Below are positions 27,406-28,978 of a stretch of 64,000 bases of DNA, piece after piece. The notes beneath the pieces are model-generated. The model saw only the letters and a list, made by a program, of their open reading frames with translations. It ran no database searches and was not told the origin of the DNA. Positions within the stretch are counted from its first letter, which is position 1, and each line of letters starts with the position of its first letter. The stretch is from Polaribacter sp. SA4-12. GTDB lineage: Bacteria; Bacteroidota; Bacteroidia; Flavobacteriales; Flavobacteriaceae. The translations under genes and the position numbers were made by a program. Location of the stretch: contig NZ_CP019334.1 of the NCBI RefSeq assembly GCF_002163675.1, forward strand, positions 3,143,501 to 3,207,500, written 5' to 3'.

Positions 27406-27437
27406 GAACCTTTTTGAGAAATCAAGAAGGTTTTTTA
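27406..27437 (+). terminator. Probable terminator after lepA
   Basis: A stem of 11 pairs with one U-G wobble (27407-27417 with 27422-27432) is followed by T6. Confidence 0.75.
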
Positions 27438-27440
27438 TTT

Positions 27441-27590
27441 GAAGCTATTTCCAGCTTTCACTACTCGCTTTTTTTATTTTAAAAAGAAATAAAAAAGAGC
27501 TCAAACAAACCGTTTCAAATGCGGAGCATTCAACGACTCAAAAGAAATATTAAAGCGGAGTTACTCTGGGCTAGACTAGTTTGCTAACAA
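27441..27590 (+). repeat. Interspersed repeat, copy B (long form)
   Basis: It begins GAAGCTATTTCC and ends near GGGCTAGACTAGTTTGC. It shares both ends with copies A and C, and most of its middle (AAAAAAGAGCTCAAAC, CAAATGCG, AGCATTCAACGA) with copy C. It follows lepA in the same orientation, just after the terminator hairpin. No reading frame is evident. Confidence 0.85.
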
Positions 27591-27649
27591 ATAGTTATTC
27601 CTTTAAAATCAAGATAATTTTTTATTTGCAGCTGTTTCTTTTTATCGCT

Positions 27650-27726
27650 GTCATTGCGAAGTTTACTTTTTTGTAAACTGTGGCAATCTCATAATTAGAA
27701 ACAGATTGTTTCGTTCCTCGCAATGA
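27650..27726. repeat. Palindromic interspersed repeat, interrupted by the IS110 element
   Basis: The terminal inverted repeat GTCATTGCGA (27650-27659) pairs with TCGCAATGA at 27718-27726; the missing final C lies on the far side of the IS at 28978. Inside is a 7-bp hairpin (27660-27666 with 27673-27679). The TCATTGCGA/TCGCAATGA ends and internal GGCAATCTC resemble a repeat I know from many Bacteroidota genomes. The IS is inserted in its right terminal arm. Confidence 0.75.
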
Positions 27727-28977
27727 TCTGTGTTAAAAAACTATTATTTATTGTTAAAATTTCTTTTATTTCAGAAAATATAAGTTTTGATGATTTTCAT
27801 TGTAAATTTGTTTGTTAGTCGCAATAGAAAAAATTTGCTTTATTAATTTATTAGCTATTGCAATTTTAATTACTCTCTCGGGTTTTCCTTTTTCTTTAAG
27901 TCGTTCATACATTTCGATACAATTTTTATTTACTCTTTTTGCAGACCAACTACATAAATACAAAAGTTTTCTAATTTGAGGTTTGCCCATTTTACAAATA
28001 TGTCCTTTACCTTTTACACTTGTTCCTGATTGATATAGCCTTGGACTAAATCCTACAAAAGCTGTCAGTTGTTTATAGTTATCAAATTTTGTGAAATTAT
28101 CTGTAATAACACTCATCATAATAGCCGTTTTTAGCCCGATTCCTGGTATCGTTTTTATTCTTTCAACCGTGTCTTTATAAGCTAATCTTCCTATTTGCTC
28201 TATCCTTTTTTTCAAACTTATCAATACGTCTTATTAATAATATTAGTACTTGTTTTAATTCTTTTCTAAGATCCGAACTCAACAAACCTGTTGCTTCAAA
28301 GGATTCTAATTGTCTTTTTGTTTGATGTTTTTGTTTTTTTAGTAATTCTAAAGCTGTGTAAAGTTGTTTAATTTCTATACTAGGTTTACTCTCTGGACAC
28401 CATCTTTTTAACTCATATTGAGCACCATATTCGGCAATTGTCTTTGCGTCTTTTTTATCTGTTTTTGCTCTATATAATCTTGTTTGACTATATCTTCTAA
28501 TTATCAAAGGATTTAATACACATACATTAAAACTAGATGCATGTAAAAAAGTTGCTAACTGAACATAATAAGGACCACTAGCCTCCATTACAATCCAGTC
28601 TGATGCACTAATCAATTTAATAAATTGCTCAAAACCTGTATTTTGATTCTTAAAAATTTTGTGAATCCATTTATCTTTTTCTAAATAAGAAACATCAAAG
28701 GTTTGCTTACTAATATCAATTCCTATAATTTTACTCATATCAAATGTTTTTATAGAAAAATTACTACATTTACTTATCAATCCTAAATACAGACTTGATG
28801 GTCTAATGATCTGTTCAAGTTTATGTAGTAAGGGGTAAAGTGATTAGCATTGCGAACGGTCTTTAATGACAAATGACGGACTATAATCTTTTCCTTTACC
28901 CTTACTTTTCTTGTTAAATATTAAATCTAATTTAAGCTTTTTAAAAACAGATCCTTATTTTTACAAACATAGGATGA
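27727..28977 (-). mobile_element. IS110-family insertion sequence, complete copy, about 1.25 kb
   Basis: The right limit is set by loss of identity with the left copy after 28978. The left limit is inferred from an ATGA shared by both junctions (27723-27726 and 28974-28977) and from restoration of the palindromic repeat when the element is removed. The uninterrupted site would read CCTCGCAATGACGCATATT. There are no terminal inverted repeats and no target duplication beyond the shared ATGA, as expected for IS110. The contents are a frameshifted DEDD transposase gene and a 5' noncoding region of about 240 bases. Confidence 0.88.
27766..28738 (-). pseudogene. IS110-family transposase, split by a frameshift at an A7 run
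   Basis: The first frame (ATG at 28736-28738) encodes the DEDD domain with Asp8, Glu52, Asp94 and Asp97. The second (28224 to 27766) encodes the C-terminal Transposase_20 domain with the helix-hairpin-helix KTIPGIGLKTA, and YQSGTSVKGKG, which should contain the catalytic serine. The total of 973 bases is one more than 324 codons. With six instead of seven As at the run (plus-strand T7 at 28206-28212) the two would join as one protein of normal length. It may be inactivated, or rely on slippage at the run. Confidence 0.85.
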
Positions 28978-28978
28978 C
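28741..28978 (-). ncRNA. Probable bridge RNA with target and donor guides
   Basis: Read on the minus strand, the first stem (28906-28894 with 28840-28827, 13 pairs and one bulge) encloses a loop whose inner part is closed by GATTA/TAATC. That loop holds CGTCAT (28878-28873) and TCGCAATG (28855-28848). The first equals the left side of the target (28979-28974). The second is complementary to the right side and equals 27718-27725. The second stem (28829-28823 with 28769-28763) encloses ACAGATCAT (28814-28806), equal to the element's 3' end (27731-27723). It also holds TAGGAT (28785-28780), matching its 5' end (28970-28975). The order target loop then donor loop, and left guide then right guide, matches the published IS621 bridge RNA. 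Expression is inferred. Confidence 0.72.

Follow-up and report, generated by a model that had tools for sequence, protein, structure and literature searches.

The window analysed here, a stretch of 64,000 nucleotides of the genome of Polaribacter sp. SA4-12, contains an insertion sequence of the IS110 group whose leader almost certainly encodes a bridge RNA: one loop of the predicted RNA matches the insertion site, and the other matches the ends of the element. An earlier note on this DNA had suggested that the element is guided in the manner of IS621, and this suggestion is supported by the guides, by the flanks of the copies, by the covariation seen among relatives, and by a transposase of the IS110 family. 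In the proposed mechanism, the first loop would read both strands of the target (the bottom strand as GTCAT, the top strand as CATTGCGA), while the second would read the joined ends of an excised circle, ACAGATCAT followed by ATCCTAT. A DEDD/serine recombinase would then swap strands at the core common to target and donor, probably AT, and the circle would be inserted without duplication. The sequences show the guides, the ends and the targets, the covariation of the stems and of the guides with targets and donors, the precise insertion and the conservation of the catalytic residues; that the RNA is transcribed, that a circle forms, where cleavage falls and that catalysis takes place are inferred.

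The mechanism itself has been known since 2024; what is new here is a well-documented element of that mechanism. Passages of PMC11208160 already describe the IS110 bridge RNAs, their loops, REP targets, the junction promoter, and covariation over thousands of elements. Among the papers listed in searches on IS110 bridge RNAs, on bridge recombinases, and on IS110 in Polaribacter and in Bacteroidetes, none deals with this particular element.

The element and its copies

In the window copy, read on the minus strand, the element starts with CCTATGTTTG at 28973 and ends with ACAGATCAT at 27723; its features are collected in Table 1. The genome (G000; 3.99 Mb in one contig) holds 14 near-identical IS110 copies, the window copy included, and these ends are common to all of them except L019, in which three left-end bases are absent. 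This loss damages the right donor as well as the -7 box, and L019 is predicted to be unable to act as a donor.

Table 1. Features of the element and of its insertion site, in window coordinates.
Feature	Position	Strand	Remarks
IS110 element	27723..28973	minus	1251 bp in the window copy, one core copy counted; CCTATG...ACAGATCAT
Transposase 5' part (DEDD domain)	28175..28738	minus	cut by the 1-nt insertion in the window copy
Transposase 3' part (serine-bearing domain)	27766..28224	minus	shifted frame
Predicted bridge RNA	28755..28959	minus	start placed by the -7 box, end by the T-run that follows stem II
Stem I, around the target-binding loop	28832..28901	minus	helices 1-3
Stem II, around the donor-binding loop	28762..28830	minus	helices 4-6
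Left target guide CGTCAT	28873..28878	minus	positions 5-9 invariant in the rows compared; position 4 covaries
Right target guide TTCGCAATG	28848..28856	minus	covaries with the right target
Left donor guide ACAGATCAT, same as the element 3' end	28806..28814	minus	fifth base, A/T, covaries between guide and end
Right donor guide ATTTAGGAT	28780..28788	minus	pairs with ATCCTAT, two bases skipped; 7/7
Left target GTCAT with left copy of the probable core (AT at 28974-28975)	28974..28978	minus	GTCAT in 14/14 copies
Right target TGCGAGGAAC, positions 10 onward	27713..27722	minus	TNCGA 14/14, TGCGA 12/14
Rest of the repeat pair forming the insertion site	27650..27722		facing GTCATTGCGA at 27650
-7 box fit (TAnnTTTG) at the left end, TATGTTTG	28964..28971	minus	overlaps the right donor; consensus from a passage of PMC9723704

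The transposase frame, 323 amino acids long, is intact in 12 of the 14 copies: that of the window copy is split by a 1-nt insertion, and that of L021 is broken early. The window copy is probably not able to make a recombinase of its own and, because its transposase is frameshifted, it would have to borrow one from an intact sister copy if it is mobile. A second genome, that of Polaribacter sp. Hel1_85 (G060), carries seven copies with 83-95% protein identity, two of them with stops.

Another copy of the same element (L018, genome positions 3143009-3144268) is cut by the start of the window, where it occupies positions 1-768, and is adjoined by a Flavo-1 RNA (RF01705) at 785-854. Flavo-1 lies near 2 of the 20 copies that were scanned with their flanks, out of 21 copies in the two genomes.

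The transposase matches PF01548 (DEDD) and PF02371 (Transposase_20), as well as the NCBIfam equivalog 'IS110 family RNA-guided transposase'. Residues 5-307 of 324 can be aligned with the recombinases of IS621 (E 1.6e-25) and ISCro4 (E 1.3e-26), and the catalytic D, E, D, D and S are kept: residues D11, E60, D102, D105 and S241 of IS621 correspond, counted by hand, to D8, E52, D94, D97 and S237. Of the solved recombinases, that of ISCro4 (PDB 9t56), likened on the protein alone, is the closest in sequence. Homologues at E 1e-40 or better number 1,701; where those among the 120 listed have a functional name, it is transposase or IS110 family transposase.

The insertion site

All 14 copies of the genome lie within a dispersed repeat, GTCAT/TNCGA, and each of them is preceded by GTCAT and followed by CATTNCGA. 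On the minus strand, the flanks of the window copy read CGTCAT at 28979-28974 and CATTGCGA at 27725-27718. The dispersed repeat GTCATTNCGA has 144 free sites in this genome, 110 in Hel1_85, 116 in G085 and 47 in G036; the reversed pattern has no more than 17. When the flanks are joined, 173 bases can be aligned at 82% with a free copy of the repeat (L153, in G063), and the alignment is unbroken at the junction: since an unoccupied repeat aligns in this way, the insertion is precise and without duplication.

Because the targets belong to one repeat family, free sites can be counted and compared with occupied ones, here with one-sided Fisher tests. In the genome of the window, the base that pairs with the guide, G, is present at 12 of 14 occupied sites versus 63 of 144 free sites (p=0.0026). 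In Hel1_85, G sites account for 3 of 7 occupied versus 11 of 110 free sites (p=0.036). Insertions there avoid T, the commonest type (1/7 versus 78/110, p=0.0047); the avoidance of T is not significant in the genome of the window (1/14 versus 35/144, p=0.13). The guide of G085 matches T, and both its copies are in T sites (2/2, p=0.20), which is little proof alone. A mismatch with the guide at position 11 occurs in 4 of the 7 copies of Hel1_85 and in 2 of the 14 copies of the first genome, which argues against a strict rule.

The flank of the window copy is built, at 27431-27514 and 27637-27722, of two repeats present in many genomes of the genus. The joined flanks are matched in 67 of 162 genomes (E 1e-15), mostly over those two stretches among the matches listed. 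The idea that the target repeat is a REP driven by a RAYT is unsupported: the Y1 transposase (PF01797) is absent in G000 and in Hel1_85, and the one match found, in G085 (L149), lies without GTCATTNCGA in the stretch examined, with a model that may miss other RAYTs. Judged by title among the matches listed, no paper related to the repeat sequence was found.

Folding of the leader

The two stem-enclosed loops that the earlier note had described upstream of the transposase are borne out by RNAalifold applied to 13 leaders. It yields two long stems with inner helices within each, for a total of 32 pairs, 18 of which have double changes; 96.9% of the cells are paired, versus 29-44% when partners are slid, and the covariation score is reached by none of 500 shuffles. 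Both stems covary, which answers a check that the note had proposed. The folding energy of the single leader is modestly below that of shuffles (z -1.74), a weak signal, and covariation was therefore used instead. At gathering scores, Rfam has no match over the leader; Flavo-1 is all that it finds in the rest of the window.

In 20,000 dinucleotide shuffles of nucleotides 31-235 of the leader, the guide words CGTCAT, TCGCAATG, ACAGATCAT and TAGGAT were found in 308, 13, 24 and 1,343 shuffles, respectively, and all four together in none. By eye, the target loop of one relative (L171, in G625) seems interrupted by a short palindrome, TCCCGATAACTATCGGGA, and that of L165 reads straight on.

Target guides

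According to the earlier note, CGTCAT in loop 1 equals the left side of the target. This is true of the window copy, and GTCAT holds generally; the sixth base, at position 4, does not, being C in only 5 of the 21 copies of the two Polaribacter genomes. Because position 4 is so rarely C, CGTCAT is better taken as GTCAT preceded by a weak sixth base. Positions 5-9 of the left guide match in all 21 copies, and they are unvarying in both guide and target across the 20 rows compared, with the consequence that covariation cannot be probed there. At position 4, the guide equals the target in 14 of 20 rows, against a permuted mean of 7.4 (p=0.0011); at positions 1-3, the 20 rows give no covariation signal. 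These rows represent one flank per lineage, with G000 entered by its commonest position-4 base and G718 entered twice; G036 (AGACAT), G060, G821 and G1002 (GTCAC) are left out.

The left-side misfits are G1002, with GTCAC, and L075 of G036, with AGACAT. The latter copy, on contig C2, appears to be inserted within the donor loop of another copy, at AGACAT instead of GTCAT; since its right end is at the edge of the contig, the nesting is possibly an assembly artefact.

The second claim on loop 1, that it contains the complement of the right target side, is confirmed by the reading of the window, by the 14 copies, two of which mismatch at position 11, and by covariation in relatives. Orthologues that are from about 95% to 37% identical have other right target guides and other targets: CTCACCATG with target CATGGTGAG in Mucilaginibacter, TTCAGAATG with CATTCTGA in a genome of the Ignavibacteriota, TTCTGGATG with CATCCAGA in G615 and G821, and TTCGAAATG with CATTTCGA in G085 and in a Bacteroidales genome. 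Pairs with one mismatch are found in G718 (TTCGGGATG with CATCCCTA), in G894 (TTCGAAATG with CATTTTGA, possibly a G:T pair), and in a Sphingobacteriaceae genome (TTCGAAATG with CATTCCGA); a one-base guide mismatch is also present in one of the two copies of G1228.

For positions 10-14 in 13 lineages, the lineage of the window included, 60 of 63 bases agree with the right guide, versus a permuted mean of 40.8, and none of 20,000 permutations reaches this value; each lineage contributes one flank, that of G060 being the commonest of its seven. With the 9 distinct guides, 42 of 43 bases match, and the true pairing is the sole best of 362,880. The 18 later copies identified with the RNA model, which belong to 7 element types, fit at 89 of 90 guide positions; when the 7 types are permuted, 4 of 5,040 orders score equally high, because two guides are shared among types. 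At least 13 changes of the right target guide are counted on a quick protein tree, in which 4 of 18 inner branches are well supported and the row of L128 covers 218 residues. Comparing guides with the flanks of other copies and of orthologues, a check also proposed in the note, thus gives flanks that follow the guides with few mismatches.

The clearest single case is that of G1028. In two of its copies the left guide is TTCGTCAT, the right guide TCCGGGATG and the targets CCGTCAT/CCCGGA; in a third the left guide is TCGGTCAT, the right guide TTCGGGATG and the target CGGTCAT/CCCGAA. Within one genome, the guides thus differ at positions 4 and 14 jointly with the target bases that they match, and the three loci, L188, L192 and L193, constitute a natural retargeting pair.

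Donor guides and core

The word of loop 2 that had been equated with the 3' end of the element, ACAGATCAT, is indeed present both at 27731-27723 and in the loop. The match of TAGGAT to the 5' end is better than was claimed: ATTTAGGAT pairs with seven donor bases if two Us are skipped. In IS621, nine RNA bases likewise pair with seven donor bases, according to a passage of PMC11208160.

Among relatives, a loop 2 with ACAGATCAT goes with an end ACAGATCAT, and a loop 2 with ACAGTTCAT goes with an end ACAGTTCAT; one-base differences between left donor guide and element end are seen in G615, G636, G762 and G880. The right donor pairing is 7/7 in each of the 6 rows typed, which represent 3 donor types: the same skipped pairing joins TTTTACGAT to ATCGTAA in G599 and ATAAATGAT to ATCATAT in G1028. 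The left end of G1002, ACCCTAT, has one mismatch, by eye.

The core had been placed inside TCAT, and TCAT is precisely the tract common to target and donor. Core positions were numbered by aligning the donor ACAG to the IS621 donor and its base numbers. The CT core is absent in the window element: within the TCAT tract, the alignment gives AT, and the core is probably AT at positions 8-9, with T at position 9. Passages of PMC11208158 report that the T at position 9 is almost invariant and that the first core base is less conserved, and that AT, GT and TT cores also support recombination.

In the same genus and family, a group of elements about 40% identical (L068-L074, L076-L081, L166, L176, L181, L185, L196 and L199) has, by eye, a core of type CTT or TT and right targets starting with TGTT. 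Their left target guide seems matched up to the core, where the loop has AG, not CT.

A possible promoter at the joined ends

The scan for sigma-70 promoters gave 1 promoter-like site versus 3.1 expected and the scan for terminators gave 0; because neither was helpful, we turned to the Bacteroidota consensus. In flavobacteria the -7 box, TAnnTTTG, spans -12 to -5, according to a passage of PMC9723704. In 14 of 17 lineages surveyed, a set that does not include G060, joining the ends places TTG exactly 20 nt before TAnnTTTG (11 exact, 3 with one mismatch), the TTG being supplied by the right end and the -7 box by the left end. The TTG is absent in the three Polaribacter lineages checked, the focal one included, and the -7 box is kept. 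Beyond the donor pairing, GTTTG is kept in 12 of 13 leaders, and not in G762, G880 and G1028; since it is kept outside the donor pairing, a promoter role fits.

Searches and samples

A protein search at E 1e-80 in 397 genomes of the family returned the genome of the window only; in 395 genomes of the class, 5 match, this genome included. A search of plasmids returned 19 records, all below 60% identity. Run on two sets of 395 genomes, one from the class and one from the phylum, the covariance model of the 13 leaders matches 16 and 9 genomes, respectively, with the genome of the window in both sets. Its loci were retrieved only in part in G599 (7 of 8) and in G880 (4 of 8).

Of 34 loci from genomes outside the model, 18 were scored, having the same type of ends and a readable right flank. 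The unscored loci are 7 with a core of type CTT or TT (six in G749, one in G755); L165 and L171, with CAT and a differently arranged loop; L169, L170 and L190, whose ends were not identified; and L168, L177, L187 and L189, with no readable right end. The ends of L021 and L025, the right flank of L128 and the right guide of L147 were taken from separate readings; for L148, the stretch of contig contains no right end.

Alternative explanations

The targets read in Polaribacter form one repeat family, and GTCAT is invariant in guide and target in the rows compared; both facts would suit an element that prefers this repeat through recognition by its protein, or through DNA hairpins, with loop matches due to chance or to a past insertion. 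We consider this explanation very unlikely. When the guide base changes, the target base changes with it in lineages that are from about 37% to 100% identical, and it does so at targets other than GTCATTNCGA, such as GGTGAG in Mucilaginibacter and CCCCG in G762. Moreover, occupied sites are enriched, relative to free sites, for the subfamily that matches the guide.

The leader could also be an attenuator or some other regulator of the translation of the transposase, and not a guide: it folds and immediately precedes the start codon, and a regulatory role might exist alongside guiding. As a replacement for guiding it is extremely unlikely, since regulation leaves unexplained why the loops covary with the flanking DNA and with the ends of the element. 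Finally, the transposase superfamily is the same in elements of the IS1111 type, whose seekRNA lies downstream of the transposase. Here, however, the gene is preceded by the long noncoding region (235 nt) and followed by no more than about 43 nt, and the order of the guides is the IS110 order as given in a passage of PMC11187229; the chance that the element is of this type is extremely small. We thus retain the reading of an IS110 element with a bridge RNA encoded in its leader.

Relation to known systems

The likeness to IS621, as described in passages of PMC11208160 and PMC11208158, extends to many details: a DEDD and serine recombinase; a leader RNA with a target loop and then a donor loop; left guides that read the bottom strand and right guides that read the top strand, with the core within the pairings; a right donor pairing of nine bases on seven, with skips; targets that are repeats (REP in IS621); and possibly a promoter at the joined ends, whose TTG is absent in Polaribacter. 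Unlike IS621, the element has a target repeat GTCATTNCGA, a recombinase that is only distantly similar, a core that is probably AT and not CT, and promoter parts that follow the Bacteroidota consensus (TTG, 20 nt, TAnnTTTG) and not sigma-70.

With ISEc21 and the seekRNA elements, as presented in passages of PMC11187229, it shares the choice of targets by a noncoding RNA of the IS110 family; natural re-direction is described there for ISEc11/ISXne4. The difference is that retargeting here involves one to few guide bases, in Polaribacter among the subfamilies of one repeat, and that two variants exist side by side in one genome (G1028).

It is tempting to go further, and we lean slightly toward the conjecture that these elements form a Bacteroidota-wide lineage with an AT core, in which swaps of one or two guide bases follow the subfamilies of dispersed repeats and a promoter of the Bacteroidota type is split across the two ends. 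If this is true, two guide variants would sometimes live in one genome; the conserved left end would double as right donor and -7 box, and the RNA would best be made from the circle.

The element and its relatives amount to a natural test of how bridge RNAs guide, repeated many times and remote from the E. coli elements of published assays; donor and target guides both covary in it. They offer a flavobacterial lineage of recombinases with a probable AT core, and the genome with 14 copies, together with the genome with two variants, makes mismatch tolerance readable from sequence. They also suggest a possible natural route to new targets for elements of this kind, through single guide bases and, in Polaribacter, along the subfamilies of a repeat.
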